Notes under the pieces: model-generated | Database searches by the model: none | Told to the model about the DNA's origin: nothing | Seen by the model: only the letters and a program-made list of their open reading frames with translations | Made by a program: the position numbers and the translations under genes | Shown: one piece after another, positions 1 through 32,939 of the stretch | How the letters are laid out: every line of letters starts with the position of its first letter | Numbering within the stretch: position 1 is the first letter of the stretch | NCBI RefSeq assembly: GCF_001956695.1 | Contig: NZ_CP019070.1 | Coordinates: 2,108,001-2,172,000 of the forward strand | From: Poseidonibacter parvus | Lineage (GTDB): Bacteria > Campylobacterota > Campylobacteria > Campylobacterales > Arcobacteraceae | Length of the DNA: 64,000 nucleotides | Reading direction: 5' to 3'

Positions 1-17
1 AATAAATAATTTTATTA

Positions 18-26
18 TGGTATAAT
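18..26 (+). promoter_or_regulatory. Candidate extended -10 promoter for rmlA operon
   Basis: TGGTATAAT matches an extended -10 (TGnTATAAT). It lies about 50 bases before the rmlA start, which has a clear AAGGAG ribosome site at 67-72. No convincing -35 box is visible, and the window edge hides whether the operon begins further upstream. Confidence 0.4.
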
Positions 27-77
27 ATTATTTATTTTAGAAATAAAAATATATATAAAACAATATAAGGAGCAAAA

Positions 78-1549: not shown

Positions 1550-2408
1550 TATCTTAGTAACAGGCTCAAACGGACAAGTTGGACGTGAACTAAGAGAGTT
1601 AGAAAAAGATTATGATTATAACTTCTTCTTTACAACAAGAGATGATTTAGATATCTCAAATAAAGAAGATATAAAAAACTTTTGTGAATCAAATAATATT
1701 AATACTATTATAAACTGTGCAGCTTATACAGCAGTGGATAAGGCTGAAGAAGATATTGAAAACGCAGATAAAATAAATCATAAAGCAGTTAAAAAACTAG
1801 CAAAGATATCAGCAGAATTAAATATAAAACTAATTCATATCTCAACAGACTATGTATTTGATGGTAAAAACTTCAAACCATATTGTGAAGAGTTTCAAAC
1901 AAATCCACAATCAGTTTACGGTAAAACAAAACTAGATGGTGAAAATCAAATGATTAAAATAAATCCTAAAAATTCTATTATTATTAGAACATCTTGGGTT
2001 TACTCAAGCTTTGGTAATAATTTTGTAAAAACAATGCTAAGACTAGGTAAAGAAAAGCAAGAACTTGGAGTTATATTTGATCAAGTAGGAACACCTACAT
2101 ATGCAAGAGATTTAGCTAAGGCTATTTTAGATATCTTGCCAGATATTAATAACTCTAAAGTAGATATATATAACTACTCAAATGAAGGAGTACTATCTTG
2201 GTATGACTTCGCAAAAGAGATTATGAAAATGGCAAAAATAACTTGTCAAATTAATCCAATAGAAACTTATCAATACCCAACACCAGCAGCAAGACCACAT
2301 TTTTCACTTTTAAATAAAGCAAAAATAAAAAATGAATTTAATATACAAGTTCCTTTTTGGAAAGATAGTTTAGATAAGTGTTTAAGAAAACTAGGAGAAA
2401 GATCATAA
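1542..2408 (+). CDS. rmlD: dTDP-4-dehydrorhamnose reductase
   Basis: This is the last step of dTDP-L-rhamnose synthesis, an NAD(P)H-dependent reduction. It is a short-chain dehydrogenase of the extended type: the Rossmann motif TGSNGQVG is at residues 7-14, STDYVFDG in the middle, and YGKTKLDGE carries the YxxxK catalytic pair. I chose the ATG at 1542 rather than the in-frame ATG at 1500, because the family begins directly with the Rossmann strand ([12 protein letters not shown]). It overlaps rmlC by 8 bases and its stop shares a base with the rmlB start (TAATG). Confidence 0.95.
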   Translation: MFNILVTGSNGQVGRELRELEKDYDYNFFFTTRDDLDISNKEDIKNFCESNNINTIINCAAYTAVDKAEEDIENADKINHKAVKKLAKISAELNIKLIHISTDYVFDGKNFKPYCEEFQTNPQSVYGKTKLDGENQMIKINPKNSIIIRTSWVYSSFGNNFVKTMLRLGKEKQELGVIFDQVGTPTYARDLAKAILDILPDINNSKVDIYNYSNEGVLSWYDFAKEIMKMAKITCQINPIETYQYPTPAARPHFSLLNKAKIKNEFNIQVPFWKDSLDKCLRKLGERS

Positions 2409-3445
2409 TGGATATAAAAAATAAAAAAAATATATTACTAACAGGAACAGCTGGATTTATAGGTTCAAACTTTGTACCATATTTCTTAGATAAATACAAA
2501 GAGTATAATCTAATAAATTTAGACCTTCTAACTTATGCAGGTGATATAAAAAACCTAAAAGAGTGTGAAGCTAATCCTAGATATAAATTTATTAAAGGTG
2601 ATATCTGTAATAGAGATCTAGTAGAATTTATTTTTACTGAATATGATATTCAAGGTGTAATTCACTTTGCAGCAGAATCACATGTAGATAACTCTATTAA
2701 AAATCCAGGAGTATTTGTAAATACAAATGTAAATGGTACTTTTACTCTTATTGATGTTGCATATAAATACTGGATGGATAAACCATTCCATTTTAAATCA
2801 GATTACCAAGACTGTAGATTTCATCATATCTCAACAGATGAAGTGTATGGAACGCTTAGCGATGATCCAAAAGATTTATTCCTTGAGTCTACTCCTTATG
2901 CTCCAAACTCTCCATATTCAGCTTCTAAAGCTTCAAGTGATATGATTATAAGAGCATATAATGAAACATATGGAATGAATACAGTAATCACAAACTGTTC
3001 AAATAACTATGGACCAAAACAACATGATGAAAAACTAATACCTACAATTATTAGAAAAGCTTTGAATAATGAAGCAATTCCAATTTATGGAGATGGAAAG
3101 AATATTAGAGATTGGTTATATGTACTAGATCATTGTAAGGGAATAGATATAGTTTATCATACAGGAAAGACAGCAAATACATATAATATTGGTGGAAGAA
3201 ATGAAAGAACAAACCTTCAAATAGTAGATGCAATCTGTACTATACTTGATACTAAGGTTCCTTCAAAAACTCTAAGTTCATATAAAGAACTAATTACCTT
3301 TGTAGAAGACAGAGCAGGACATGATAGAAGATATGCAATAGATGCTACAAAACTTGAAGATGAGCTTGGATGGAAAGCTGATGAGAACTTTGATAGTGGG
3401 ATTGTTTTAACTGTGGATTGGTATTTGGGGAAGTATGAAGTTTGA
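2408..3445 (+). CDS. rmlB: dTDP-glucose 4,6-dehydratase
   Basis: This converts dTDP-glucose to dTDP-4-keto-6-deoxyglucose, the second step of the rhamnose pathway, with bound NAD. The Rossmann motif GTAGFIGSN lies near residue 13, HISTDEVYG is the Thr/Asp/Glu active-site segment, YSASKASSD carries YxxxK, and RDWLYVLDHC is a family signature. The ATG at 2408 is preferred over one 30 bases upstream because it overlaps the rmlD stop and gives the usual N-terminus. It completes the four-gene rml set, here in the order A-C-D-B. Confidence 0.96.
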   Translation: MDIKNKKNILLTGTAGFIGSNFVPYFLDKYKEYNLINLDLLTYAGDIKNLKECEANPRYKFIKGDICNRDLVEFIFTEYDIQGVIHFAAESHVDNSIKNPGVFVNTNVNGTFTLIDVAYKYWMDKPFHFKSDYQDCRFHHISTDEVYGTLSDDPKDLFLESTPYAPNSPYSASKASSDMIIRAYNETYGMNTVITNCSNNYGPKQHDEKLIPTIIRKALNNEAIPIYGDGKNIRDWLYVLDHCKGIDIVYHTGKTANTYNIGGRNERTNLQIVDAICTILDTKVPSKTLSSYKELITFVEDRAGHDRRYAIDATKLEDELGWKADENFDSGIVLTVDWYLGKYEV

Positions 3446-4704
3446 TAACAAAATTTAAAAATATTGCTAAAAATAAAAAATCATTAATATTTTTAGATCA
3501 AATACTGGTTAGTGGTAGTAATTTTTTACTAGGTATTTTACTGGCTAGATTTTTAGGATTAGATATTTTTGGACAATTTTCATTATTGTGGCTAATTGTA
3601 TTATTTTTTAGTAGTATTCAATTGGCACTAATAATTTCACCACTTTTAACACATGCACCTAAAAAAAACAAATTAATAAAAGATTATTATTTAACTAATA
3701 TGTTATATATGCAATTTATTTTTTCTATAATTTGTGTATTAATATTAAGCATTTTATTTTATTTTTCAGAATTAATCACTAGTAAATATAATATCTCTGA
3801 ATTCAGATATTATATATTATGGATGGTTTTTTCTTTCTTATGTCAAGATTTCATAAGAAGATATTTTATCATTAAAATATCTTATTTTAGATTAATATTT
3901 ATTGATGTTATTGCATATATAGGACAACTAATAGGAATAAGTTCATTAATATTTTTTGAACAGCTTACTCTAATTAATACTTTTATATCAATATCACTTA
4001 CATTTACAATATCTTTTGCTGTAGGATATTTACAAATAAACTTTAAATCTTTAAAATCTACTCATATAAAGTTATTATTTTTAAAAAATTGGAAATTTTC
4101 TAAATGGTTAGTTTATTCATCTCTTCTCCAGTGGGGAAGTGGAAACTTTTATATTTTAGTAGCTGGTTCAATTTTAGGTCCATGGTCCGTAGGGGTTATT
4201 AAAGTAATGCAAAATACAATGGGTATATTTCATGTTATATTTATTGCCTTAGAAAATATCCTTCCAATTAGATTTGCAGAAATTTATAAAAATAACGGAT
4301 ATCAAAAAACAATATCTTTCTTTAAAATACAATTGCAGTATGGATTTTATATATTTTTAGTTTTAATATCAGTACTTTTTATTTATGGTGAAGAACTTAT
4401 ATTAGTAATTTATGGTGATGAATATGTATCTTACTCATATTTATTATTTGGTTTTATGATTATGTACATATTTATTTATATTGGAATGTTGCAACGTTAT
4501 ATTCTAAGAACCATTGAAAATACAAAGAAAATATTTATAAATTATATAATAACAACTATTTTTTCAGTTATAGCATCTTTTATACTTATAAAAACATTAG
4601 AAATAAACGGAGTCGTTATAGGAATGATACTTACTCAAATATTAACATCAATTATATTCTTTATTGAAATAAAAAAAATTAGTTTAAAGTCTGCAAATGA
4701 TTAA
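3442..4704 (+). CDS. Polysaccharide flippase (Wzx-like)
   Basis: This is a 420-residue, very hydrophobic protein with roughly twelve membrane segments and little soluble sequence, matching the MATE/MOP superfamily of lipid-linked oligosaccharide flippases. The N-terminal stretch VSGSNFLLGILLARFLG is characteristic of Wzx-type transporters. The likely job is to move undecaprenyl-linked repeat units across the inner membrane. The start is a TTG overlapping the rmlB stop by 4 bases, and the next gene overlaps its end by 8 bases. Flippase sequences diverge quickly, so substrate cannot be read from the sequence. Confidence 0.85.
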   Translation: MITKFKNIAKNKKSLIFLDQILVSGSNFLLGILLARFLGLDIFGQFSLLWLIVLFFSSIQLALIISPLLTHAPKKNKLIKDYYLTNMLYMQFIFSIICVLILSILFYFSELITSKYNISEFRYYILWMVFSFLCQDFIRRYFIIKISYFRLIFIDVIAYIGQLIGISSLIFFEQLTLINTFISISLTFTISFAVGYLQINFKSLKSTHIKLLFLKNWKFSKWLVYSSLLQWGSGNFYILVAGSILGPWSVGVIKVMQNTMGIFHVIFIALENILPIRFAEIYKNNGYQKTISFFKIQLQYGFYIFLVLISVLFIYGEELILVIYGDEYVSYSYLLFGFMIMYIFIYIGMLQRYILRTIENTKKIFINYIITTIFSVIASFILIKTLEINGVVIGMILTQILTSIIFFIEIKKISLKSAND

Positions 4705-17635: not shown

Positions 17636-18433
17636 ATGAAGAATTCTTTGTCAAGGGCATTACTTATATCAGGTCTATTAGTATTGTTTAGTGGTTGTAC
17701 ATTAAAAGATTATAAGCTTTTTCAAGTAGAAAAAAAAGAAGAAACTGTAATAACTAAAGTATCAAAAGAAGACTATGTAAAAGAAGTTGCATACGAAAGT
17801 AAAATTGCTGCAAATGATAGAGTATCTATTACTGTATATATACAGTCAGGTAAAGGCTCTCAACAAATGACTTCTATACTTACAAGCCAAAATACTAATA
17901 ATACTGAAGATGTAGATGACATTGGAATATTAGTAACACAAAAAGGAACAGTAAGACTTCCTTTGATAGGTAGTGTTAAGATATCTGGATTAACAGCTGA
18001 TGAAGCATCCGAAAAGCTTATAAGTTTATATAAACTTTATATAAGAAACCCTTATGTAACAACTGAAATAAAAAACCAAAGAGTTATAGTAATAGGTGAA
18101 GTTAAAAATCCTGGTGTTGTAGCTGTACAAAATGGTACAATGAACTTGATTGAAGCAATTGCTCAAAGAGGTGATTTAACTGATTATGCTTCTAGAAATA
18201 ATATCAAGATTATAAGAGGGGATTTAAGAAATCCAGATATTAGAAATATTGACCTTGCAAATTTAACTGCTTTAAATGACGGTAGTATGCTGTTAAAACC
18301 TAATGATATTATATATGTTCAGCCAACAGATTTAAAAGGTTATAATAGAGCCTTTAATGATATTGTTCCTTTCTGGAATATGCTATCAGCAATCCTAGAT
18401 CCATTTACACAAAGAAAAGAGTTAATACAATAA
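17636..18433 (+). CDS. Polysaccharide export lipoprotein (Wza-like)
   Basis: This is a 265-residue outer-membrane polysaccharide export protein. The N-terminal signal ends in the lipobox LFSGC (Cys21). NDRVSITVYIQSG begins the Poly_export domain and GTVRLPLIGSVKISGLTADEA is its conserved core. NQRVIVIGEVKNPG and AIAQRGDLTDYASRNNIKIIR form an SLBB domain. It is shorter than E. coli Wza and probably lacks the same C-terminal membrane helix. Its stop overlaps the kinase start by one base, giving a Wza-Wzc export pair. Confidence 0.92.
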   Translation: MKNSLSRALLISGLLVLFSGCTLKDYKLFQVEKKEETVITKVSKEDYVKEVAYESKIAANDRVSITVYIQSGKGSQQMTSILTSQNTNNTEDVDDIGILVTQKGTVRLPLIGSVKISGLTADEASEKLISLYKLYIRNPYVTTEIKNQRVIVIGEVKNPGVVAVQNGTMNLIEAIAQRGDLTDYASRNNIKIIRGDLRNPDIRNIDLANLTALNDGSMLLKPNDIIYVQPTDLKGYNRAFNDIVPFWNMLSAILDPFTQRKELIQ

Positions 18434-20784
18434 TGAGTAACATAATAAATGTTCAACAAAATGATGAAATAGACTTAAAACAAGTTTTTAAAATAATTAG
18501 CAGGTATAAATATATTATATTACTACTTGCTATTGTATTTACTATTGCTACTGCTGTTTTTGCATATACAAAGCCAAATATTTATGCTTCTTCTGCAACA
18601 ATAGAAATGCAAGAAGAACAAAGAGGATATAACAGTGCTGATGCTTTAAAACAAGCATTTACAGGTGGTGGAATAAATGTACAAAATCAAATCGAGATAT
18701 TAAAATCAAGATTTTTGGCAGAAAAAGCTCTTAAATCTTTAGATTTAAATACTAGATATTTTACAACTAAAAACTATAGAAAACATGAGTTTTATCAAAA
18801 TTCTCCTTTTGTAGTAGGGACTAAAGTTTTAGATAATATTATTTATGGAAAGAAGTTTATACTAACACCTATAAATGAAGATACTTTTAATCTTAAGATT
18901 CTTCCAACTTCAAAGTATTCAAAAAAAGGAATACTTGCTTTATTAGGTGTTTCACCTCTTAAAGAATATGATTTAATTTCTTATGATAAAAATCACAAAT
19001 ATGGTGAAGATATTAATACAGAATGGTTTGAAATAAAAATCAATCAAATATCTCAAATGGAAAATGAAACTTATTCTTTTCAGTTTATCCATCCTTCAAT
19101 TGCTGCTGATGTATTTTATAGTGGATTAAATGTATCACAAGTATCAGAATTAGCCTCAGTACTAAGAATATCTATACAAGATACAGTATCTACAAGAGCA
19201 AAAGACCTTTTAAATTCGTTATTTAAAGCATATTTAGATGAAGAAGTAAAAAGAAAAAGTGAAGTTGCTAATTTATCTTTAGCCTTTATCGATAAACAAT
19301 TAGAAGATATTAATCAAAGACTAAAAATATCTGAAAATAAACTAGAAGTTTATAAAGAATCAAATGATGTAATAAGCTTACCAGAAAAAGCAACTGCAAC
19401 TGCAAAAAATATTACAGAGTACGAAGCAAAACTTCAAGAGATAATCATTGAAGAGAATATTCTTAAAAATTTACAACAATATATTGTTTCGAATACTAAT
19501 CTTTCAGGATTAACTGTAGGATCTATTCAGTTTGCTGACCCTGCTCTTGCTGCTTTGATTACAAAGCTACATGAACTTTCAACACAAAAGGAATCTGTAC
19601 TAATTGACTATACAGAACTACACCCTGATGTTGAGAAGCTTAGTAAAACTATTGCGTCACTTAGAAGATCAATTAAAGCCTCTTTAAAATCAAATTTAAG
19701 ACAACTTAATCAAAGAAAAAAATCTATGAATAGACTTATTTCTAAATATACAAAATCTTTAGAAACACTTCCTAAACAAGAAAGAGAACTTACAAGATTA
19801 TCTAGACATTTTAATGTAAATGAAAAAGTTTATTCATTTCTACTTGAAAAGAGAGCTGAAACTGCTATTTTAAAATCATCAACTATTTCTAATGGTAGAA
19901 TTTTAGATGAGGCATTAAACTACCCTCAACCTATCAAACCTAAAAGAATGTTGATTGTTTTAGTTGGTATGATTTTAGGAATTATTTTTGGTTTAGCATA
20001 TGCATTTATCAAAGAGTTTTTAAATGATACTATTAAAAATACAGAAGAAATAGAAAGACTATCTTCTATTCCTATTTATGGGGTTATTCCATTAAATAAA
20101 AATAAAAAGATTGCAAATATCTTTTTTGAAGCATTTAGGTCAATACGTACTAACTTACAGTTTTTACCACAACATGAAAAAAGTAGAGTTATTACTATTA
20201 CTTCATCTGTATCAGGAGAAGGTAAAACTAATACTGCCGCAAAACTTGCAGAAGTAATTGCTAAGAGTAATAAGAAAGTTATAATCTTGGATTTAGATTT
20301 AAGAAAAGCTAGTGTACATAATGAATTTAATATTCCTAATAATATTGGGTTTAGTAACTATTTAACTAAACAAAATACTCTTGAAGAAGTTATCAAAAAA
20401 ACTTCTGAAGAAAACATTGATATTATTACAACTGGAGTATTACCTCCTAATCCTTCTGAATTAATACTTATGGATGAGACAAAAGATACAATTGAGTTAT
20501 TAAAACAAACTTATGATTATGTTATTATAGATACTCCACCTGTTGGACTAGTAACTGATGCGTTGATTTTGATGAACTATACTGATATTACATTCTTTAT
20601 TGTTAGAGCTAATTATACTAGAAAAGAGTTTATTAAAAATCTTGATAGACTTAGCAAAGAGCACTCACACAATCACATTGGTATGATATTAAACGGTGTT
20701 GAGATTGGTGATAAGTATGGATATGGTTATGGTGTTAGTTATGGATATGGTTATGGAAATGACAAATACTACAAAGGTAGATAA
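18433..20784 (+). CDS. Tyrosine-protein kinase / chain-length regulator (Wzc-like)
   Basis: This is a 783-residue inner-membrane BY-kinase. A Wzz domain starts near residue 10, with membrane segments near residues 27-47 and 506-526 flanking a long periplasmic region with coiled coils. The cytoplasmic kinase domain has SGEGKT (Walker A, about 594-599), IILDLDLRKA (Walker A') and YDYVIIDTPP (Walker B). The C-terminus holds eight Tyr within 24 residues in GYGYG-type repeats, the autophosphorylation cluster. It should control polymer length and export with the Wza-like protein. The adjacent PHP-type phosphatase is its likely antagonist. Confidence 0.95.
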   Translation: MSNIINVQQNDEIDLKQVFKIISRYKYIILLLAIVFTIATAVFAYTKPNIYASSATIEMQEEQRGYNSADALKQAFTGGGINVQNQIEILKSRFLAEKALKSLDLNTRYFTTKNYRKHEFYQNSPFVVGTKVLDNIIYGKKFILTPINEDTFNLKILPTSKYSKKGILALLGVSPLKEYDLISYDKNHKYGEDINTEWFEIKINQISQMENETYSFQFIHPSIAADVFYSGLNVSQVSELASVLRISIQDTVSTRAKDLLNSLFKAYLDEEVKRKSEVANLSLAFIDKQLEDINQRLKISENKLEVYKESNDVISLPEKATATAKNITEYEAKLQEIIIEENILKNLQQYIVSNTNLSGLTVGSIQFADPALAALITKLHELSTQKESVLIDYTELHPDVEKLSKTIASLRRSIKASLKSNLRQLNQRKKSMNRLISKYTKSLETLPKQERELTRLSRHFNVNEKVYSFLLEKRAETAILKSSTISNGRILDEALNYPQPIKPKRMLIVLVGMILGIIFGLAYAFIKEFLNDTIKNTEEIERLSSIPIYGVIPLNKNKKIANIFFEAFRSIRTNLQFLPQHEKSRVITITSSVSGEGKTNTAAKLAEVIAKSNKKVIILDLDLRKASVHNEFNIPNNIGFSNYLTKQNTLEEVIKKTSEENIDIITTGVLPPNPSELILMDETKDTIELLKQTYDYVIIDTPPVGLVTDALILMNYTDITFFIVRANYTRKEFIKNLDRLSKEHSHNHIGMILNGVEIGDKYGYGYGVSYGYGYGNDKYYKGR

Positions 20785-20791
20785 ATAAGAT

Positions 20792-20828
20792 TAAGAATCA
20801 AATAAAGTTATTCTTTATTTGGTTCTTA
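20792..20828. terminator. Hairpin between convergent wzc-like and phosphatase genes
   Basis: TAAGAATCAAATAAAG pairs with CTTTATTTGGTTCTTA around a 5-base loop, a 16-base stem with one mismatch or wobble. It overlaps the last codons of the phosphatase gene and follows the kinase stop by 7 bases. It lacks a strong T run, so termination may be partial. Confidence 0.55.
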
Positions 20829-21538
20829 TCAAATACCTCTTTTAATTTACTCGTTTGAGTAAACTCTTTCAAAGAATCAAAATACTTCATTGCATGAATA
20901 TCGCTTCCTACAAAATCTACTAAATGATTATCCACTAAATATTGAGCAGCTTTTTTAGGTTTTTTACCATAGAAGCTGTTTAAGGAATTTAAATTTATTT
21001 GAAATAATAAGCCTAAGTCTTTTAAACTATTGTATCTACTTAAATCTGAAGAGTAATAAGTATATCTTTCGGGATGAGCTAGAACTGGTTTATAACCTGC
21101 AGATAAAAGCTCAAATATCACTTGTTCTATTCCAAAAGGTTTTGTGGTATATGAAAACTCAAATAAAACATAATTATCACCAAATGTTAATAAATCTTTT
21201 GCTCTTATTAAATCAATAAAATGTTCGTCATAGTAATACTCTGCTGCCATTTCAAATATGATATCAATATTTTGTTTACGTAATTCTTCTTTTACTTGAT
21301 TGTAACCTAGTGTAATAGTTTCTTTTGTATTTGGAAATCGGTGGCTCATTATATGAGGTGTAGTGATAATCTTTTTATATCCTAGGGATTGCATTTCTTT
21401 TATAATTGAAATACTTTCATCAAGAGTTTTAACACCATCGTCAATAGATGGTATTAAGTGAGAGTGAATATCTGTTGTATAACATTCCCAAAGGTGATGT
21501 TTTTTATTTTTTATTTTTGAAAATAATTTTGAAAACAT
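20798..21538 (-). CDS. PHP-family tyrosine-protein phosphatase (CpsB/YwqE-like)
   Basis: This is a 246-residue metal-dependent phosphatase of the polymerase-and-histidinol-phosphatase fold. DIHSHLIPSIDDG gives the HxH metal site, ITTPHIM, LAHPERYTYY and GSDIHAM the other metal-binding loops. Family members (CpsB, YwqE) dephosphorylate bacterial tyrosine kinases of capsule systems. It faces the Wzc-like kinase gene, so it probably resets that kinase, in place of the low-molecular-weight Wzb of enterobacteria. An AAAGGA site precedes the ATG. It lies downstream of the adhesin gene on the same strand, 41 bases away. Confidence 0.9.
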   Translation of the reverse strand: MFSKLFSKIKNKKHHLWECYTTDIHSHLIPSIDDGVKTLDESISIIKEMQSLGYKKIITTPHIMSHRFPNTKETITLGYNQVKEELRKQNIDIIFEMAAEYYYDEHFIDLIRAKDLLTFGDNYVLFEFSYTTKPFGIEQVIFELLSAGYKPVLAHPERYTYYSSDLSRYNSLKDLGLLFQINLNSLNSFYGKKPKKAAQYLVDNHLVDFVGSDIHAMKYFDSLKEFTQTSKLKEVFDKNQIKNNFI

Positions 21539-21552
21539 TTTTTTTCCTTTTG

Positions 21553-21581
21553 AAGTATTAGACTTTTAAAGTCTAATACTT
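21553..21581 (-). terminator. Strong hairpin at the end of the giant adhesin gene
   Basis: AAGTATTAGACTT and its exact complement form a 13-base stem with a 3-base loop, touching the adhesin stop codon. No T run follows on the - strand, and the phosphatase ribosome site comes right after it. It may act as a partial terminator or 3'-end stabiliser rather than a full stop. Confidence 0.5.
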
Positions 21582-24500
21582 ATGGTACTTCTACAGTTAT
21601 TGTATCTTCTATTAGAAGTTTTAAAGATTGATCATCTTTACTTGAATAATAAACATTGAAACCATCTTCTTGGTATGGAACTCCATCATTCATCATAGCT
21701 TGAGACCAATTTTGAGAAGGATCTAGTTCGATACTATCTACATCATCTCCAAATATTTTAAGTGTATTATCTTCATCTGTTAATGATATAAACTCATCAA
21801 GTGTAAAGTTACTTAAGATATGTGCAGCATCATTTGCACCTGTGTCAATATTTTCAATATTATAAACTGATACATTTTCTAACAATGATGCTAAATCTAA
21901 GCTTGAACCTTCACCACTTAAATCTAATGTATCTTCACCATCGTTTGCATCTATATATCTTGTAGGTGAATCATCATTTAAAACAATGATATCATCTTCT
22001 TCTGATAAAACTTCTGTATTATCTCCAATTACAGTAGTAAAATCTTCTCTACCTTCATTATAGCTTTCAACTTTTGTGATTACATTTACTTCACTTTCTA
22101 GGTTTGTTATTGTAATTTCATTATTAAATGATTCAACTATATTATTTGAATCAATATCATTACTATCAATTGTAAAATAGTAATCAGCTGGTGCATCATC
22201 TAAATAAACTGGATATTCATAGTTCTCATTATTTTCAACTTCTGCTAATAATGTTTGAATTGATTCTACAGAAATAGAATCTCCATAGTACCAAACTCCC
22301 TGTTCTTGTGAAACTCCAGGAACTTCAATTTCTGTTTTATAAATTTGTTCATTTTCTTCTTTATATACTATTGTTCCTTCGTTAGTAATTTCTACAATTA
22401 AATAATCTTGTCCATTAATTATCTCAGTACGCCACCCTCCGTCTGTAATACTTAAACTAAATGTATTGTAAATAGTTCCATTAGAATTTAACTTATATGC
22501 ATTATTTTCTGTATAAATAGATGTAAAGTCTTCTGGGTTAAGTAATTTTGATTCGAAATCTATTAAATTATTAGATTCAAATCTTTCAGTCCACCAATCA
22601 TCAATATTATCTATAGTTGGTACCTCAAGTGTTTTAAATGTAACATCAACTTGATATAAACCATATAAACTTACATCTATACCATTTATATTTGTAACTT
22701 GTCTTGCCTCACCAAAAATTAATTCGTCTTTACCCCATGTTCCTTGAGCTTCTAAAGTCCCGTTGTTATCGCTATCAGTTAAAATTATGTTTTCAATAGC
22801 AGGTTCTTCATCTGCTTCATATTGAGTATCTACTAATGTACCATTGTCAAAATCAAGTTTTTCAACATACATCTCACCCTCTTCAAAACCAAAATCATAA
22901 AGTGTTTGAGTACTAGTAAGTGTTGGTGCTATAAAAGAGTTATCTTCATCTCCTGATGTTAATACAACTCCATCATATGTAATATTTACATTATCAGGTT
23001 GTGTTGCAGCTTTTGCTTCAATTACATTGCCTGCAAATTCTAAAGTAGAATCTGCTGTTGCACCATCTACAAAAATATTTATAGTTCTTATATAATTTGT
23101 TTCATTAATATTAGAATCTAATGTAAAAGTTCTACTGCCATCCATAGTAAATTCTGAAAGTTCTGAATCGATATATAAAGAATTATCATTGTTATTACCA
23201 GAATCAATAGGTGTAGCTACAGTTTTTTCTATATTAGTAATCATAGTATCACTTGAAATAGTAAGTTTATATGGTCCACTATCAGTATCATTTTCATTGA
23301 AACCATTTATAATATCTTCTTCAGATAAAGGATATGTACCAACAACTAATGTATAATCACCAGAAGCTAAATTATCTATTGAAAGTAAAGAATCTAAGCT
23401 TGAAGTTGAGCCATCTTCTCTACTGATATCTGAGAAAGAATCATCATTAGAATCAATTAATGATTCAGAATTAAATACACCTGTATTATTATATAAATAT
23501 ATATATGAATCTATTGGTTCTTGTACATTATTACCATTTATATCAATATATGAAGTAACTTCATCTTCTAAAACAACTTCGTCTTCCAAATTAATTTCAT
23601 CGTCATAATCACTTTCTTCAGTTAAAATATTAAATAATATCCGCCCTCCATTATGTGTGAAATTAATATAATCTATACTATTACCATTTATCTCTCTATA
23701 TGATGTAATTTCTCCATTTACTTCAGTAGAATATGCAAAAGATGGATTAATAATAACTTCATCCGTAACCCCACCAATTGTTACATTTACTGTTTGTTCT
23801 TCACTATATGCTATTCCATCATATGCTCTTACTTTAAACGTTGCATCTATTGAGTCTGTTGTATTTAATGCATCTATTTCTTCACTATAGATTATTAAAT
23901 CCCCTACTTCTGCTCCACTTGGCATTGAGCCTATATTTGTTGTTGTTACTTGGAATACTCCGTTTGTATTTGTACTTGTGATATCTATTCCATCTTGTGC
24001 AAACGTTGAGCTATCTGTTGTTAATGACATCCCTACTATTTCATCATCTACATCTGTTATATCTAATGTATCTAACACTGTTTGTAATTTTATTAATTGG
24101 TAGTAACTATTATTTGTTGAGTTATCTGAGAAGTCTATTTCATTTAATGTTAACAATGAGCTTTCTGCTGTTATTTCTGGTGCATCATTTGTTCCATCTA
24201 TTGTTACATTTACTATTTGTTCTTCACTATATGCTATTCCATCATATGCTCTTACTTTAAACGTTGCATCTATTGAGTCTGTTGTATTTAATGCATCTAT
24301 TTCTTCACTATAGATTATTAAATCCCCTACTTCTGCTCCACTTGGCATTGATCCTATATTTGTTGTTGTTACTTGGAATACTCCGTTTGTATTTGTACTT
24401 GTGATATCTATTCCATCTTGTGCAAACGTTGAGCTATCTGTTGTTAATGACATCCCTACTATTTCATCATCTACATCTGTTATATCTAATGTATCTAACA

Positions 24501-27500
24501 CTGTTTGTAATTTTATTAATTGGTAGTAACTATTATTTGTTGAGTTATCTGAGAAGTCTATTTCATTTAATGTTAACAATGAGCTTTCTGCTGTTATTTC
24601 TGGTGCATCATTTGTTCCATCTATTGTTACATTTACTATTTGTTCTTCACTATATGCTATTCCATCATATGCTCTTACTTTAAACGTTGCATCTATTGAG
24701 TCTGTTGTATTTAATGCATCTATTTCTTCACTATAGATTATTAAATCCCCTACTTCTGCTCCACTTGGCATTGAGCCTATATTTGTTGTTGTTACTTGGA
24801 ATACTCCGTTTGTATTTGTACTTGTGATATCTATTCCATCTTGTGCAAACGTTGAGCTATCTGTTGTTAATGACATCCCTACTATTTCATCATCTACATC
24901 TGTTATATCTAATGTATCTAACACTGTTTGTAATTTTATTAATTGGTAGTAACTATTATTTGTTGAGTTATCTGAGAAGTCTATTTCATTTAATGTTAAC
25001 AATGAGCTTTCTGCTGTTATTTCTGGTGCATCATTTGTTCCATCTATTGTTACATTTACTGTTTGTTCTTCACTATATGCTATTCCATCATATGCTCTTA
25101 CTTTAAACGTTGCATCTATTGAGTCTGTTGTATTTAATGCATCTATTTCTTCACTATAGATTATTAAATCCCCTACTTCTGCTCCACTTGGCATTGATCC
25201 TATATTTGTTGTTGTTACTTGGAATACTCCGTTTGTATTTGTACTTGTGATATCTATTCCATCTTGTGTAAATGTTGAGCTATCTGTTGTTAATGATATC
25301 CCTACTATTTCATCATCTACATCTGTTATATCTAATGTATCTAACACTGTTTGTAATTTTATTAATTGGTAGTAACTATTATTTGTTGAGTTATCTGAGA
25401 AGTCTATTTCATTTAATGTTAACAATGAGCTTTCTGCTGTTATTTCTGGTGCATCATTTGTTCCATCTATTGTTACATTTACTGTTTCTATATTTGTTTC
25501 TGAACTATTTGTACTATAATCAAAAGTAAATTTTATAGATTGATCTTCTTGCATACTATTGAATAATGGACTTGATATTGTATAGTTTCCATCTGTTTGT
25601 ACATCTATAAATAATAAATTCTCTTCTTCTAGTTTATCTACATATGATTGTGTTACTTCACCTTCAACTGTTATTTCACCTGTTGCTACATCTACTGTTA
25701 CTTCTTCAAAACTATTTAGATATGTTACTAACGTTGACACACTTGGTGCTGCTAATATTCCAGCTGCTACATTTTGAAGTGTTGCATATTCTGATATTAC
25801 TGTTGCTATTAATGGGTTTGAGATAGCTTGTGTAAATTCTGCTTTTAAGAATGCTAATGATTCTGCTGTATCTGCGTTTACTGCTGCGACGATTGCACTT
25901 TGTGTTGTTGTTAATTTTATTATTAAATTACCTAAGTATTCAAAATTTGGTATTTCATCTTGTCCACTTGGTACTGTTAATATTCCTTGGTAAACATAAT
26001 CTGTTATAGGATTATCTATTAAGTCATTTTCATTAATAACATTTGAATTTTCTAATAATGAAGATAATAAAGAGAAAGATGTAAATGAAGGTGTAGATGT
26101 AGATTCAAGTCCTGTTTCTCCATCTATTAATAAGCTAATTGTTTTTATACTTGATTCATTTACTCCATCATTTGCTATATAATCAAATTTTAATTCTGCA
26201 CTTTGATTATCATCCATACTATTGAATAATGGACTTGATATTGTATAGTTTCCATCTGTTTGTACATCTATAAATAATAAGTTCTCTTCTTCTAATTTAT
26301 TTACATATGATTGTGGTACTTCACCTTCAACTGTTATTTCACCTGTTGTTACATCTACTGTTACTTCTTCAAAACTATTTAGATATGTTACTAACGTTGA
26401 CACACTTGGTGCTGCTAATATTCCAGCTGCTACATTTTGAAGTGTTGCATATTCTGATATTACTGTTGCTATTAATGGGTTTGAGATAGCTTGTGTAAAT
26501 TCTGCTTTTAAGAATGCTAATGATTCTGCTGTATCTGCGTTTACTGCTGCGACGATTGCACTTTGTGTTGTTGTTAATTTTATTATTAAATTACCTACAT
26601 ATTCAAAGTTTACTGTATCATTTAAATCTGCATCTATTCCTGTTAATAATCCTGAGTAATTATAGTTTGGTACTAATAATGAATCATTTAAATCATTTTC
26701 GTTTACAACATTTGTTACATCTTCTATTATTGGTGCATCATTAGCTCCTGTAACTGTTAAACTTACTGTTTTTATATTTGATTCATTTACTCCATCATTT
26801 GCTATATAATCAAATTTTAATTCTGCACTTTGATTATCATCCATACTATTAAATAATGGACTTGATATTGTATAGTTTCCATCTGTTTGTACATCTATAA
26901 ATAATAAGTTCTCTTCTTCTAGTTTATTTACATATGATTGTGGTACTTCACCTTCAACTGTTATTTCACCTGTTGTTACATCTACTGTTACTTCTTCAAA
27001 ACTATTTAGATATGTTACTAACGTTGACACACTTGGTGCTGCTAATATTCCAGCTGCTACATTTTGAAGTGTTGCATATTCTGATATTACTGTTGCTATT
27101 AATGGGTTTGAGATAGCTTGTGTAAATTCTGCTTTTAAGAATGCTAATGATTCTGCTGTATCTGCGTTTACTGCTGCGACGATTGCACTTTGTGTTGTTG
27201 TTAATTTTATTATTAAATTACCTACATATTCAAAGTTTACTGTATCATTTAAATCTGCATCTATTCCTGTTAATAATCCTGAGTAATTATAGTTTGGTAC
27301 TAATAATGAATCATTTAAATCATTTTCGTTTACAACATTTGTTACATCTTCTATTATTGGTGCATCATTAGCTCCTGTAACTGTTAAACTTACTGTTTTT
27401 ATATTTGATTCATTTACTCCATCATTTGCTATATAATCAAATTTTAATTCTGCACTTTGATTATCATCCATACTATTAAATAATGGACTTGATATTGTAT

Positions 27501-30500
27501 AGTTTCCATCTGTTTGTACATCTATAAATAATAAGTTCTCTTCTTCTAGTTTATTTACATATGATTGTGGTACTTCACCTTCAACTGTTATTTCACCTGT
27601 TGTTACATCTACTGTTACTTCTTCAAAACTATTTAGATATGTTACTAACGTTGACACACTTGGTGCTGCTAATATTCCAGCTGCTACATTTTGAAGTGTT
27701 GCATATTCTGATATTACTGTTGCTATTAATGGGTTTGAGATAGCTTGTGTAAATTCTGCTTTTAAGAATGCTAATGATTCTGCTGTATCTGCGTTTACTG
27801 CTGCGACGATTGCACTTTGTGTTGTTGTTAATTTTATTATTAAATTACCTAAGTATTCAAAGTTTATTGTATCACTTTGAATATCTGTTCCTGTTAATAA
27901 TCCTGCGTAAGTAAAGTCTTCGACAAGAGCATTATCTATTAAATCATTCTCATTTACTAGATTTGTTACATTTTCTATAATTGGTGCTGTTTGTGATTCT
28001 TGTGCCTGAGTAACTGATCCTACTGTAGCTTCATTTACTCTCATTTGGAATACTTCTCCTGTTGAATTACTAACAGCTGTAGTTGTATTACCACTTAAAA
28101 TACCAGCTTCTAACTCATTTTCTGTTTCTTCTGCAGCTATTTGTTTTTTTGCTAAATTTTCAAATGCTTCTACTACATTTATTGTATCAGTTGTTGAATT
28201 TATTATTGCAGTATTTGTATTTACAATTATTGTCAGTATATCAGTTTTAATACTATCACTTATAGTTGTATTTGATGTAGTTAATGCATTTGTTATTAAT
28301 GTATCTATACTTGAACTACTTGTAAAATCAAGATTACCTAATATTATCATTTTTGCTATTTCTTGAGAAATAATATCAGAAGCATCTCTTTCATTAGTTC
28401 CATCTAATGCTACGGCTAATTGTCCTATTGTATTATTAATTGTTACATTTAGTGTTTGAAAAGATACATTATTATTTACAATTGTTGAATCTTCAGAACT
28501 TATTGCTGTTGCTATTGGATCTGCTTGTAAGTCTACACTTGAATCAATATTAAGATTATTATAAATTAATGTTTTTGCTTCAGTTAAAGTTTTACCTTCA
28601 TTCATTAAATCTACTAATAAACTTGTTATTGGGTTTAGTACTGTTGATCCCTCAGGTGCTTTATATATACCTTCAAAAGCTAAACCTGTTGAAATATCTG
28701 TTCCACCATAACCTATAACTGTTCCACTTAAATCGCCACCAACTAGAGTGAAATTTCCTATCTCATCTGTAAGAGTATGTGTTTCAGTACCACTTATAGT
28801 TTTATCTCCATCTAAATCACTTAATACTGTCATCCCTGTAATATAACCATCAATACTAGTACCTGATAGCGTATCCGTAACCCCACCAATTGTTACATTT
28901 ACTATTTGTTCTTCACTATATGCTATTCCATCATATGCTCTTACTTTAAACGTTGCATCTATTGAGTCTGTTGTATTTAATGCATCTATTTCTTCACTAT
29001 AGATTATTAAATCCCCTACTTCTGCTCCACTTGGCATTGATCCTATATTTGTTGTTGTTACTTGGAATACTCCGTTTGTATTTGTACTTGTGATATCTAT
29101 TCCATCTTGTGCAAACGTTGAGCTATCTGTTGTTAATGACATCCCTACTATTTCATCATCTACATCTGTTATATCTAATGTATCTAACACTGTTTGTAAT
29201 TTTATTAATTGGTAGTAACTATTATTTGTTGAGTTATCTGAGAAGTCTATTTCATTTAATGTTAACAATGAGCTTTCTGCTGTTATTTCTGGTGCATCAT
29301 TTGTTCCATCTATTGTTACATTTACTATTTGTTCTTCACTATATGCTATTCCATCATATGCTCTTACTTTAAACGTTGCATCTATTGAGTCTGTTGTATT
29401 TAATGCATCTATTTCTTCACTATAGATTATTAAATCCCCTACTTCTGCTCCTACTGGCATTGATCCTATATTTGTTGTTGTTACTTGGAATACTCCGTTT
29501 GTATTTGTACTTGTGATATCTATTCCATCTTGTGCAAACGTTGAGCTATCTGTTGTTAATGACATCCCTACTATTTCATCATCTACATCTGTTATATCTA
29601 ATGTATCTAACACTGTTTGTAATTTTATTAATTGGTAGTAACTATTATTTGTTGAGTTATCTGAGAAGTCTATTTCATTTAATGTTAACAATGAGCTTTC
29701 TGCTGTTATTTCTGGTGCATCATTTGTTCCATCTATTGTTACATTTACTATTTGTTCTTCACTATATGCTATTCCATCATATGCTCTTACTTTAAACGTT
29801 GCATCTATTGAGTCTGTTGTATTTAATGCATCTATTTCTTCACTATAGATTATTAAATCCCCTACTTCTGCTCCTACTGGCATTGATCCTATATTTGTTG
29901 TTGTTACTTGGAATACTCCGTTTGTATTTGTACTTGTGATATCTATTCCATCTTGTGCAAACGTTGAGCTATCTGTTGTTAATGACATCCCTACTATTTC
30001 ATCATCTACATCTGTTATATCTAATGTATCTAACACTGTTTGTAATTTTATTAATTGGTAGTAACTATTATTTGTTGAGTTATCTGAGAAGTCTATTTCA
30101 TTTAATGTTAACAATGAGCTTTCTGCTGTTATTTCTGGTGCATCATTTGTTCCATCTATTGTTACATTTACTGTTTGTTCTTCACTATATGCTATTCCAT
30201 CATATGCTCTTACTTTAAACGTTGCATCTATTGAGTCTGTTGTATTTAATGCATCTATTTCTTCACTATAGATTATTAAATCCCCTACTTCTGCTCCTAC
30301 TGGCATTGATCCTATATTTGTTGTTGTTACTTGGAATACTCCGTTTGTATTTGTACTTGTGATATCTATTCCATCTTGTGCAAACGTTGAGCTATCTGTT
30401 GTTAATGACATCCCTACTATTTCATCATCTACATCTGTTATATCTAATGTATCTAACACTGTTTGTAATTTTATTAATTGGTAGTAACTATTATTTGTTG

Positions 30501-32136
30501 AGTTATCTGAGAAGTCTATTTCATTTAATGTTAACAATGAGCTTTCTGCTGTTATTTCTGGTGCATCATTTGTTCCATCTATTGTTACATTTACTGTTTG
30601 TTCTTCACTATATGCTATTCCATCATATGCTCTTACTTTAAACGTTGCATCTATTGAGTCTGTTGTATTTAATGCATCTATTTCTTCACTATAGATTATT
30701 AAATCCCCTACTTCTGCTCCTACTGGCATTGATCCTATATTTGTTGTTGTTACTTGGAATACTCCGTTTGTATTTGTACTTGTGATATCTATTCCATCTT
30801 GTGCAAACGTTGAGCTATCTGTTGTTAATGACATCCCTACTATTTCATCATCTACATCTGTTATATCTAATGTATCTAACACTGTTTGTAATTTTATTAA
30901 TTGGTAGTAACTATTATTTGTTGAGTTATCTGAGAAGTCTATTTCATTTAATGTTAACAATGAGCTTTCTGCTGTTATTTCTGGTGCATCATTTGTTCCA
31001 TCTATTGTTAATGTAATTTTTTTTGCAATTGATGTTGCATTTGCTTCACCTGAATCATCAATTACTTGTACATCAAATGTTACTGTAGCACTATCACCTG
31101 CACCTAGTTTATCAATTCCTGCACCACTTAATGTATAAGCTCCTACATTTGTCATTGAAACAGTAACTGTTCCAATCCCAACTGAATTTATATCAGTAAC
31201 TGTTGTACTTACATTTGTAAGTGCCACAAATGAAAGTGTGTCATTTATATCTACATCAGCTGCGATTACATCTGTTAATGAAATTGTCCCTGTTAATATA
31301 TCTTCTGCTACATTTGTTACTTCTGTATAATCAGAAATAATTGGTGTGTCATTTATTGAATTAACAGTTACATTAAAACTTTGGATTGTACTAGTACGTC
31401 CATCACTTACTTCTAGTGTTACTACTGCATTTCCATTAAAATCTTGATTTGGAGTAAAAACAATATCACCATTAGCATCAATAATAACAGTACCATTTGT
31501 AGCACTTACAGTAGGTATTAAAGTATCATTATCTAAATCACTTGAGTTATATGCAATTGTAATACTGTTATCTTCATCTGTTGTTTGTGCAGAAATTAAT
31601 TCAATTATAGGAGCACTATTTTGAATAATAATATTGTTTCCAGCAGGAGCCGCAGCAACAACTCCTCTTGGTAAAGTTTCATTATCAATTACAGCATTTT
31701 GTGTATTATTTTGATCTGCAAGATTATCATCCTCTTGTGCTGGAGTAGCACCACTATCTGAATTAGCATTAGTCTCTTGACCTGGACCAGCAGCGGATTC
31801 TTGTAATGCACTAGCTAAATCTGTAATACTAGCAAGTGCATTTTCTTTTCCATCTGGTAGTATTTCAATTAGTTCAACCAAAGTAAAGCCATTATTTTGA
31901 GCAAGTAGTTCAGCCATATCTTTTAATATTAATTCTAAAATATTACCTTCAATATCAGTAAATACAATTTTTAAATCATTCTCTTCTAAGCTTGAAATAT
32001 ATTTAATTCCCGCTGGAATTTTTATTTGAACTGTATTATTTAATACTAAATTCTCCAATGTTAATGATTTTTTACCATTTAATGAAACTATTTTTGATAA
32101 ATCTATTTCTTGACCGTACTTTTCAATTGAAACCAT
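21580..32136 (-). CDS. Giant type I-secreted repeat adhesin (LapA/BapA-like)
   Basis: This is a 3518-residue surface adhesin without a Sec signal. Residues 1-100 resemble the retention module of LapA-type adhesins, and a candidate LapG-like cleavage motif SAAG lies at 114-117 in a Gly/Ala/Asn-rich linker. Cadherin/VCBS-like domains follow, with NDAP and NVTIDG strand ends. Then come five 141-residue repeats (about residues 375-1082), a unique region, four roughly 209-residue repeats (1382-2203), four more 141-residue repeats (2217-2786) and a PPC-like domain. The last 120 residues (LDLSGEGSSLDLASLL, TDEDNTLKIFGDD) fit a type I secretion C-terminal target. Asp-rich loops suggest calcium binding. 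An AAGGA site precedes the ATG. No secretion system or LapD/LapG gene is in the window. Confidence 0.9.
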   Translation of the reverse strand: MVSIEKYGQEIDLSKIVSLNGKKSLTLENLVLNNTVQIKIPAGIKYISSLEENDLKIVFTDIEGNILELILKDMAELLAQNNGFTLVELIEILPDGKENALASITDLASALQESAAGPGQETNANSDSGATPAQEDDNLADQNNTQNAVIDNETLPRGVVAAAPAGNNIIIQNSAPIIELISAQTTDEDNSITIAYNSSDLDNDTLIPTVSATNGTVIIDANGDIVFTPNQDFNGNAVVTLEVSDGRTSTIQSFNVTVNSINDTPIISDYTEVTNVAEDILTGTISLTDVIAADVDINDTLSFVALTNVSTTVTDINSVGIGTVTVSMTNVGAYTLSGAGIDKLGAGDSATVTFDVQVIDDSGEANATSIAKKITLTIDGTNDAPEITAESSLLTLNEIDFSDNSTNNSYYQLIKLQTVLDTLDITDVDDEIVGMSLTTDSSTFAQDGIDITSTNTNGVFQVTTTNIGSMPVGAEVGDLIIYSEEIDALNTTDSIDATFKVRAYDGIAYSEEQTVNVTIDGTNDAPEITAESSLLTLNEIDFSDNSTNNSYYQLIKLQTVLDTLDITDVDDEIVGMSLTTDSSTFAQDGIDITSTNTNGVFQVTTTNIGSMPVGAEVGDLIIYSEEIDALNTTDSIDATFKVRAYDGIAYSEEQTVNVTIDGTNDAPEITAESSLLTLNEIDFSDNSTNNSYYQLIKLQTVLDTLDITDVDDEIVGMSLTTDSSTFAQDGIDITSTNTNGVFQVTTTNIGSMPVGAEVGDLIIYSEEIDALNTTDSIDATFKVRAYDGIAYSEEQIVNVTIDGTNDAPEITAESSLLTLNEIDFSDNSTNNSYYQLIKLQTVLDTLDITDVDDEIVGMSLTTDSSTFAQDGIDITSTNTNGVFQVTTTNIGSMPVGAEVGDLIIYSEEIDALNTTDSIDATFKVRAYDGIAYSEEQIVNVTIDGTNDAPEITAESSLLTLNEIDFSDNSTNNSYYQLIKLQTVLDTLDITDVDDEIVGMSLTTDSSTFAQDGIDITSTNTNGVFQVTTTNIGSMPSGAEVGDLIIYSEEIDALNTTDSIDATFKVRAYDGIAYSEEQIVNVTIGGVTDTLSGTSIDGYITGMTVLSDLDGDKTISGTETHTLTDEIGNFTLVGGDLSGTVIGYGGTDISTGLAFEGIYKAPEGSTVLNPITSLLVDLMNEGKTLTEAKTLIYNNLNIDSSVDLQADPIATAISSEDSTIVNNNVSFQTLNVTINNTIGQLAVALDGTNERDASDIISQEIAKMIILGNLDFTSSSSIDTLITNALTTSNTTISDSIKTDILTIIVNTNTAIINSTTDTINVVEAFENLAKKQIAAEETENELEAGILSGNTTTAVSNSTGEVFQMRVNEATVGSVTQAQESQTAPIIENVTNLVNENDLIDNALVEDFTYAGLLTGTDIQSDTINFEYLGNLIIKLTTTQSAIVAAVNADTAESLAFLKAEFTQAISNPLIATVISEYATLQNVAAGILAAPSVSTLVTYLNSFEEVTVDVTTGEITVEGEVPQSYVNKLEEENLLFIDVQTDGNYTISSPLFNSMDDNQSAELKFDYIANDGVNESNIKTVSLTVTGANDAPIIEDVTNVVNENDLNDSLLVPNYNYSGLLTGIDADLNDTVNFEYVGNLIIKLTTTQSAIVAAVNADTAESLAFLKAEFTQAISNPLIATVISEYATLQNVAAGILAAPSVSTLVTYLNSFEEVTVDVTTGEITVEGEVPQSYVNKLEEENLLFIDVQTDGNYTISSPLFNSMDDNQSAELKFDYIANDGVNESNIKTVSLTVTGANDAPIIEDVTNVVNENDLNDSLLVPNYNYSGLLTGIDADLNDTVNFEYVGNLIIKLTTTQSAIVAAVNADTAESLAFLKAEFTQAISNPLIATVISEYATLQNVAAGILAAPSVSTLVTYLNSFEEVTVDVTTGEITVEGEVPQSYVNKLEEENLLFIDVQTDGNYTISSPLFNSMDDNQSAELKFDYIANDGVNESSIKTISLLIDGETGLESTSTPSFTSFSLLSSLLENSNVINENDLIDNPITDYVYQGILTVPSGQDEIPNFEYLGNLIIKLTTTQSAIVAAVNADTAESLAFLKAEFTQAISNPLIATVISEYATLQNVAAGILAAPSVSTLVTYLNSFEEVTVDVATGEITVEGEVTQSYVDKLEEENLLFIDVQTDGNYTISSPLFNSMQEDQSIKFTFDYSTNSSETNIETVNVTIDGTNDAPEITAESSLLTLNEIDFSDNSTNNSYYQLIKLQTVLDTLDITDVDDEIVGISLTTDSSTFTQDGIDITSTNTNGVFQVTTTNIGSMPSGAEVGDLIIYSEEIDALNTTDSIDATFKVRAYDGIAYSEEQTVNVTIDGTNDAPEITAESSLLTLNEIDFSDNSTNNSYYQLIKLQTVLDTLDITDVDDEIVGMSLTTDSSTFAQDGIDITSTNTNGVFQVTTTNIGSMPSGAEVGDLIIYSEEIDALNTTDSIDATFKVRAYDGIAYSEEQIVNVTIDGTNDAPEITAESSLLTLNEIDFSDNSTNNSYYQLIKLQTVLDTLDITDVDDEIVGMSLTTDSSTFAQDGIDITSTNTNGVFQVTTTNIGSMPSGAEVGDLIIYSEEIDALNTTDSIDATFKVRAYDGIAYSEEQIVNVTIDGTNDAPEITAESSLLTLNEIDFSDNSTNNSYYQLIKLQTVLDTLDITDVDDEIVGMSLTTDSSTFAQDGIDITSTNTNGVFQVTTTNIGSMPSGAEVGDLIIYSEEIDALNTTDSIDATFKVRAYDGIAYSEEQTVNVTIGGVTDEVIINPSFAYSTEVNGEITSYREINGNSIDYINFTHNGGRILFNILTEESDYDDEINLEDEVVLEDEVTSYIDINGNNVQEPIDSYIYLYNNTGVFNSESLIDSNDDSFSDISREDGSTSSLDSLLSIDNLASGDYTLVVGTYPLSEEDIINGFNENDTDSGPYKLTISSDTMITNIEKTVATPIDSGNNNDNSLYIDSELSEFTMDGSRTFTLDSNINETNYIRTINIFVDGATADSTLEFAGNVIEAKAATQPDNVNITYDGVVLTSGDEDNSFIAPTLTSTQTLYDFGFEEGEMYVEKLDFDNGTLVDTQYEADEEPAIENIILTDSDNNGTLEAQGTWGKDELIFGEARQVTNINGIDVSLYGLYQVDVTFKTLEVPTIDNIDDWWTERFESNNLIDFESKLLNPEDFTSIYTENNAYKLNSNGTIYNTFSLSITDGGWRTEIINGQDYLIVEITNEGTIVYKEENEQIYKTEIEVPGVSQEQGVWYYGDSISVESIQTLLAEVENNENYEYPVYLDDAPADYYFTIDSNDIDSNNIVESFNNEITITNLESEVNVITKVESYNEGREDFTTVIGDNTEVLSEEDDIIVLNDDSPTRYIDANDGEDTLDLSGEGSSLDLASLLENVSVYNIENIDTGANDAAHILSNFTLDEFISLTDEDNTLKIFGDDVDSIELDPSQNWSQAMMNDGVPYQEDGFNVYYSSKDDQSLKLLIEDTITVEVP
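23779..25486 (-). repeat. Adhesin repeat block: four 423-base units
   Basis: Four tandem 423-base (141-residue) units, nearly identical at DNA level. Each begins around TIDGTNDAPEITAESS and contains LDITDVDDEIVG and SMPSGAEVG. All four units carry Ser in the SMPxGAEVG position. The N-terminal-most unit differs by a few bases (TQDG rather than AQDG). Confidence 0.92.
25527..27990 (-). repeat. Adhesin repeat block: four units of about 627 bases
   Basis: Four units of roughly 209 residues, spaced 627 bases (663 for the last). Each holds FEYLGNLIIKL or FEYVGNLIIKL, an Ala/Leu-rich helical-looking stretch (AAVNADTAESLAFLKAEF), VTVDVTTGEITVEGEV and YTISSPLFNSM. The two central units are almost identical over their whole length; the outer two differ at their edges. 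Confidence 0.9.
28890..31010 (-). repeat. Adhesin repeat block: five 423-base units
   Basis: Five tandem 423-base units of the same family as the block at 23779-25486. The first four from the protein N-terminus read SMPVGAEVG and the fifth SMPSGAEVG. The linker reads EEQTVNV in units 1-2 and EEQIVNV in units 3-5. Synonymous differences are very few. Confidence 0.92.
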
Positions 32137-32246: not shown

Positions 32247-32939
32247 ATGAATCTTAGCTTGAAAAAATTATTAAAACAACTAACTATTTTGTATGTAAGT
32301 AAAAAAGACAGCAATTATAAAAAAATAAATACAACATTAGAAATATTTTTTGATAATATCATACGTTGTAATAATAAAGAAGATGCCCTATTTATTTATA
32401 AGGATACTTTCCCAAATATAATAATAGTAGATATTGACTTAGTTGATTCAAATGGAATTGAATTAATAAAAGATATTAGAAAGAAAAATAAGAATATCCC
32501 TATATTAATAATTACTAATAATATAGAAACCCACAATTTAATTGAAGCAATTAAACTTAATTTAATTGATTATTTACTAAAACCAATAGATGTAAGTAAG
32601 TTAATATTTTCTTTGAATAAAATTGCAAAAATAATTCTCAATAGTGGTGAAATAAGTACATTTATTAAAAAAGATATAAAATATAATTATTTAGAAAAAA
32701 CCATACTTCATAATAATAAAACAGAAGTACTAACAAAAACAGAAAGTAGACTTTTAGAATTGTTACTTACAAATAAAAATAAAATAGTATCAATAAAAGA
32801 AATAAAAAAAGTAATTTGGAGTGATAAAGAAGTTTCAGAATCTGCTTTTAAATCACTTTTAAATAGATTATCAAAAAAGATTGGGAAAGATACCATAAGC
32901 AATTCCTTTGGAATTGGTTATGGTCTTATAAATAAATAA
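32247..32939 (+). CDS. OmpR-family response regulator with atypical receiver domain
   Basis: This is a 230-residue regulator: receiver domain (about residues 12-125) plus a winged-helix Trans_reg_C domain (about 150-228; LTKTESRLLELLL, then the recognition region SAFKSLLNRLSKKIG and GIGYGL). The phospho-acceptor Asp62 (IIIVDIDL), Thr90 and Lys112 (LLKP) are present. The acidic pair that normally binds Mg2+ (as in VEDD) is replaced by VSKK at 17-20. No histidine kinase is adjacent. It diverges from the adhesin gene with 110 bases between, so it is the obvious candidate regulator of adhesin expression. The start has no ribosome site. Confidence 0.88.
   Translation: MNLSLKKLLKQLTILYVSKKDSNYKKINTTLEIFFDNIIRCNNKEDALFIYKDTFPNIIIVDIDLVDSNGIELIKDIRKKNKNIPILIITNNIETHNLIEAIKLNLIDYLLKPIDVSKLIFSLNKIAKIILNSGEISTFIKKDIKYNYLEKTILHNNKTEVLTKTESRLLELLLTNKNKIVSIKEIKKVIWSDKEVSESAFKSLLNRLSKKIGKDTISNSFGIGYGLINK

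Follow-up and report, generated by a model that had tools for sequence, protein, structure and literature searches.

Adhesins that are exported by a type I secretion system (T1SS) and cleaved by LapG are known from Pseudomonas fluorescens (LapA), Vibrio cholerae (FrhA and CraA), and Desulfovibrio vulgaris (DvhA) (PMC6890996, PMC13090378). The cleavage sites read [T/A/P]AAG and follow a β-rich retention domain and a helix (PMC13090378). Ligand-binding domains are carried by the split domains of repeats-in-toxin (RTX) adhesins (PMC12077191), and the Periscope Proteins SasG, Rib, Sgo_0707, and CdrA (PMC8201768) contain tandem near-identical folded domains. Here we describe a giant adhesin encoded in a 64,000-nucleotide stretch of the Poseidonibacter parvus genome (NZ_CP019070.1, positions 2,108,001 to 2,172,000; hereafter, the window). 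The protein is likely to be a LapA-like, type-I-secreted, retention-anchored biofilm adhesin of an Arcobacter-family bacterium that can be released by LapG. It would link a Lap-like adhesin system, releasable through cyclic di-GMP (c-di-GMP), with a conserved locus of response regulator, adhesin, polysaccharide, and T1SS genes in this family; our literature search found no description of a Lap system in Arcobacter-family bacteria. The genome of the window (G000) is one contig of 2.87 Mb. It was compared with two relatives in the same genus (G006 and G009), two in other genera (G010 and G045), and a family set of 104 genomes, one per species.

As in LapA, FrhA, CraA, and DvhA, an N-terminal module is followed by a helix and AAG and by a repeat rod, the C39-like domain of the T1SS lacks Cys, and the genome encodes both LapG and LapD. 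Unlike that group, the window adhesin lacks canonical RTX nonapeptides, has SAAG instead of [T/A/P]AAG, and carries predicted helical inserts in VCBS-like shells. The locus also differs in that the T1SS lies 18–28 kb off across a polysaccharide cluster and that LapG and LapD are unlinked. An earlier note, made from the DNA sequence, placed a giant open reading frame (ORF) here with exact boundaries and called its product an adhesin. This identity gains indirect support from the VCBS and cadherin domains, the absence of Cys, the N-terminal module with its AAG, the linked T1SS, and LapG/LapD.

The N-terminal module is common to the adhesins of the window, G006, G009, G010, and G045, and those of the four relatives are 45–72% identical to it. 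In the AlphaFold2 (AF2) model, whose mean predicted local distance difference test score (pLDDT) is 58, strands extend up to residue 104, a helix occupies residues 107–113, and coil or disorder follows. This order is the layout described for retention domains. Ala115, Ala116, and Gly117 are invariant in the five N-termini, and the preceding residue is Ser in the window adhesin, G009, and G045 or Ala in G006 and G010. A second giant adhesin of 8295 amino acids (aa) is encoded in the same genome (G000:C1:2646.8–2671.7 kb; L080/L081) with its own T1SS nearby. It has AAAAGPGG at about residue 157 and is therefore a second candidate LapG substrate.

LapG-type Peptidase_C93 proteins are found in nine of the 10 genomes of the genus (eight above the cut-off). 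G000 has three of them and two LapD_MoxY_N+EAL proteins, with LapG-LapD pairs at 0.47 and 0.74 Mb, and the Cys, His, and Asp of the expected LapG triad are visible in the sequence. In the LapD-like protein adjoining LapG (L089:4802–7012, minus strand), the periplasmic LapD_MoxY_N domain is in two halves around an insert of ~100 aa.

The T1SS operon, consisting of OEP, ATP-binding cassette (ABC) transporter, and HlyD genes, is located at G000:C1:2097–2102 kb with no giant adhesin directly beside it. The ABC transporter, whose C39-like domain lacks Cys, scores 866.7 bits against TIGR03375 (cut-off 693.1) and is one of four LssB-type transporters in G000. The outer membrane factor (OMF) is separated from the adhesin by 27 kb in G000, 22 kb in G010, 18 kb in G045, and 28 kb in G009, that is, in all four assemblies in which the linkage can be read. 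Polysaccharide genes adjoin the adhesin on the T1SS side, and in the g10 genomes a homologous OMF is near the adhesin C-terminus. An OMF match above 400 bits is present in 15 of the 104 family genomes: each of the 11 that encode the adhesin N-terminus and four of the remaining 93 (Fisher p = 6e-12, which ignores phylogeny). Linkage and co-distribution give good support to the inferred export of the adhesin by this T1SS. A T1SS inside the window beside the adhesin was rejected, as a scan of the neighbouring genes recognised none.

The 3518-aa protein contains no Cys residue. As a whole it matches the VCBS repeat family TIGR01965 of NCBIfam (149.5 bits against a cut-off of 15.5) as well as a cadherin-like Pfam domain, and a PDB sequence search with it gave no match at E 0.01. 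Whole-protein Pfam matches to DUF7073, pYEATS, DUF5608, and MetallophosN look like repeat-summed noise with zero passing stretches and were discarded. Toward the C-terminus, a DVUA0089/FDP-family match (NF038127) lies at about residues 2868–2959, and the last ~170 residues are matched in 56 of the 104 family genomes. Autotransporter identity was rejected, since the C-terminus has no match to a barrel domain.

Two repeat families, A and B, make up the array region, which reads A5-spacer-B4-A4. They had been described as interleaved, but all four B units lie between the two A blocks, and a unique spacer of 294 aa separates them from the first. The spacer is 65% identical to that of G009 and ~35% to those of G006 and G010. 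The claim of nine 423-base units is borne out: repeat finders detect nine A units in register, five in the first block and four in the second. Repeats span 60% of the gene, in agreement with the claim of more than half. The near-identity of the copies at silent sites is likewise confirmed for the A units, with a mean dS (synonymous substitutions per synonymous site) of 0.024, a mean pairwise nucleotide identity of 98.7% (98–100% over a 300-nt window), and 14 variable columns out of 423. Exact repeats in the gene reach 929 nt, whereas codon-shuffled controls give none longer than 19 nt, and A-unit sequence occurs elsewhere in the genome only as ~30-bp scraps. An altered edge, TIGGV, is common to A5 and A9, the last units of their blocks, and an S-for-V variant is common to A5 and A6–A9. 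This pattern is the expected trace of block copying plus local homogenisation. As in VCBS-repeat proteins, the A units exceed the curated TIGR01965 cut-off, and a single unit barely passes it (17.0 bits) and has no Pfam match. The VCBS match suggests that the A units may fold as VCBS domains. A single B unit matches no family.

The four B units had been taken as repeats of roughly 627 bases. This holds for B2 and B3, the only clean 627-nt duplicates, but B1 and B4 share with them only a core of ~360 nt (about 120 aa) that starts from NFEY(L/V)GN and is common to all four, plus part of the right side. The insert cores are 97–100% identical in amino acids with a dS of 0.01–0.05 in codon alignments. 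The left halves, B2 = B3 excepted, are 38–62% identical with a dS of ~0.36–0.46, so the dS shifts from about 0.4 to 0.01–0.05 at the insert edge. A near-identical core within diverged shells suggests that the insert was copied or homogenised on its own. In the AF2 model of the B unit (five sequences), a strand is followed by five helices at residues 60–123 and then by more strands. The pLDDT is mostly 63–85 in the helix block (mean of the whole model, 55), hinting that the insert may be largely helical. Foldseek searches of the PDB with the N-terminal and B-unit models returned nothing at E ≤ 0.001, and the fold claims are hence taken from the AF2 models alone.

The identity at silent sites points to recent intragenic recombination, which would maintain near-identity among A units and among insert cores. 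It is possible, though doubtful, that the insert is a separately mobile cassette of ~120 aa within a domain: a largely helical, probably ligand-binding element that gene conversion copies into several VCBS shells of one adhesin even though the shells differ, leaving binding module and rod to evolve at different tempos. If so, this would be a diversifying adhesin locus, since the corresponding shells of related species hold inserts that differ in sequence and length. By analogy, a ligand-binding role is plausible because split domains in RTX adhesins hold ligand-binding domains (PMC12077191). The four-fold homogenised insert, apparently helical, is the unusual element of this adhesin, and it offers a testable handle on the spread of binding modules inside a giant adhesin.

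The adhesins at the same locus span 2125–5144 aa (2125 in G045, 4079 in G006, and 5144 in G010; that of G009 is split). G010 has 24 cadherin units of 88 aa in blocks of two types, 97–100% identical within a type (95% for the last unit), and the G006 and G045 adhesins have no exact 60-mer repeats. A C-terminal stretch of 542 aa is 64% identical in G006, and the extreme C-terminus is also common to G010 and G045. The content of the array thus turns over between species and probably between strains. The expectation of the earlier note that such arrays change length by recombination is upheld over evolutionary time, since the arrays of the relatives differ at the same locus and the unit edges show block copying. 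Recent homogenisation by intragenic recombination, in A units and insert core alike, would lead to this turnover. Very long, repetitive, helical-looking inserts, with motifs such as IVxAIETQIxDTTHTxELT, are seen between VCBS-like halves in the G006, G010, and G045 adhesins (L074, L077, and L078).

The position of the break in G009 should be noted. The adhesin is split over two draft contigs (CANNFB010000005 and C21; L111:1–2327 and end of L076), and the gap lies inside the A array: one contig stops after the first 47 aa of the first A unit, and the other starts 25 aa before an A-unit end. The latter contig contains the spacer, a single VCBS domain with a different helical-looking insert, the C-terminus, and the T1SS, but neither a second A block nor the additional B units. 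The predicted risk of collapse in short-read assembly is thus borne out by a relative, G009, whose draft assembly broke at a repeat array, and the size and count of adhesins in draft genomes of this family are not to be trusted.

If the components act as in the LapA group, the adhesin would be exported C-terminus first by the OMF-ABC-HlyD system 27 kb away across the polysaccharide cluster. The N-terminal module would remain in the periplasm as a plug of the outer-membrane channel, with the VCBS/cadherin rod on the outer side. On a drop in c-di-GMP, a LapG-type protease would cut between Ala115 and Ala116 to release the adhesin; the genome has genes for such a protease and receptor, and the adhesin carries the candidate site. 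The A blocks would form a spacer rod, the four predicted helical inserts, which would project from split VCBS shells, are candidate modules for binding or cohesion, and the conserved C-terminal region is a candidate tip.

Several observations weigh against a LapA-like adhesin. Ser, rather than Thr, Ala, or Pro, precedes AAG in the window adhesin, and the DP motif is absent. The module has no family match and no structural match (Foldseek against the PDB), and the AF2 models are of low confidence (mean pLDDT 55–58). The canonical RTX nonapeptide GGxGxD gives zero matches in the adhesin and its four homologs, so the protein is not classed as an RTX adhesin. The T1SS is not adjacent, three other LssB-type transporters are present in the genome, and both LapD genes are unlinked to the adhesin locus. 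The constant linkage to the polysaccharide cluster, together with the missing RTX motifs and structural match, would suit a secreted matrix protein that the T1SS exports into the polysaccharide of the neighbouring cluster to cross-link the matrix, with an N-terminal module that is no plug. However, few parts of the protein are as well conserved as the module and AAG, and LapG and LapD are present, which fits an anchored, releasable protein, and a matrix protein seems unlikely.

For the repeats of the putative LapA-like adhesin, it is quite improbable that the nine A and four B units are partly an artefact of an over- or under-expanded assembly. The exact repeats of up to 929 nt do exceed short-read length, and a short-read relative, G009, broke inside this array, but the genome assembly is a single contig, the ORF runs without interruption, and the units bear distinct marker substitutions in an ordered pattern. 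An old origin of the repeats, with selection on the protein rather than recent copying maintaining their similarity, is hardly credible. Adhesin stalk domains are commonly conserved, but permuting synonymous codons with the protein unchanged lowers the mean A-unit identity to 84% (maximum 84.9%) versus the observed 98.7%, and the fall in dS at the insert edge of the B units contradicts this explanation as well.

Table 1. Features of the adhesin gene and its neighbours (window coordinates)
Feature	Residues	Position	Strand	Basis or remark
Giant adhesin gene	1–3518	21580..32136	−	Uninterrupted 3518-aa ORF, no Cys
N-terminal module, proposed periplasmic retention module	1–114	31795..32136	−	Conserved; AF2 model
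AAG (in SAAG), candidate LapG cleavage site	115–117	31786..31794	−	Invariance and consensus
Cadherin_5/Big_9 domain	173–258	31363..31620	−	Pfam PF17892, PF17963
First A block, A1–A5, five 141-aa VCBS-type units	382–1086	28879..30993	−	Repeat finders, TIGR01965
Unique spacer (294 aa)	1087–1380	27997..28878	−	No family match
B1, VCBS-like shell with predicted helical insert		27370..27996	−	
B1 insert core, 120 aa		27505..27864	−	Near-identical among the four cores
B2, 627 nt		26743..27369	−	Clean duplicate of B3
B2 insert core		26878..27237	−	Helices in AF2 model
B3		26116..26742	−	
B3 insert core		26251..26610	−	
B4, divergent shell		25459..26118	−	Same insert as other B units
B4 insert core		25588..25947	−	
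Second A block, A6–A9, four units	2227–2790	23767..25458	−	Exact unit boundaries
Conserved distal region, candidate binding tip	2791–3350	22087..23766	−	Homology to G006; NCBIfam NF038127
C-terminal ~170 aa, proposed T1SS signal region		21580..22092	−	Common to giant proteins family-wide
OmpR-type response regulator, divergent from adhesin		32247..32939	+	Pfam
CpsB/CapC-type phosphatase, downstream of adhesin		20798..21538	−	Pfam; neighbourhood in relatives
Wzc-like polysaccharide co-polymerase/kinase		18433..20784	+	Family match; neighbourhood in relatives
Wza-like polysaccharide export protein		17636..18433	+	Pfam; neighbourhood in relatives

The adhesin appears to work like a Periscope Protein as well as like the LapA type. 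It shares with the Periscope Proteins tandem near-identical folded domains whose number is expected to vary by intragenic recombination, but it differs in its proposed N-terminal anchor and C-terminal tip and in that a second family lies between two separate blocks of one unit. With the split-domain RTX adhesins AhLap and MpAFP, the latter ice-binding (PMC4083281, PMC12077191), it has in common β-sandwich repeats, NDAP-type linkers, and domains budding from split Ig-like domains. Unlike in those proteins, the insert is predicted to be mainly helical and is present in four near-identical copies, and the RTX motif is absent.

The response regulator occupies the same divergent position in all four relatives, with identities of 50–73%, and is separated from the adhesin gene by a 110-bp intergenic region, making it a candidate regulator of the adhesin. 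A promoter scan of this region found fewer sites than in shuffles, and no promoter is therefore claimed. The CpsB-Wzc-Wza neighbourhood of the adhesin is conserved in the relatives.

Elsewhere in the window, the 926-aa DnaG primase (54543–57323, minus strand) contains a 381-aa intein at 56001–57143 with splicing and LAGLIDADG/homing-endonuclease matches. The remaining genomes of the 104-member family set lack this intein, except for one, G006, whose copy is 92% identical. The intein sits inside the CHC2 zinc finger (YHCFG^C...GN^CGVGG).

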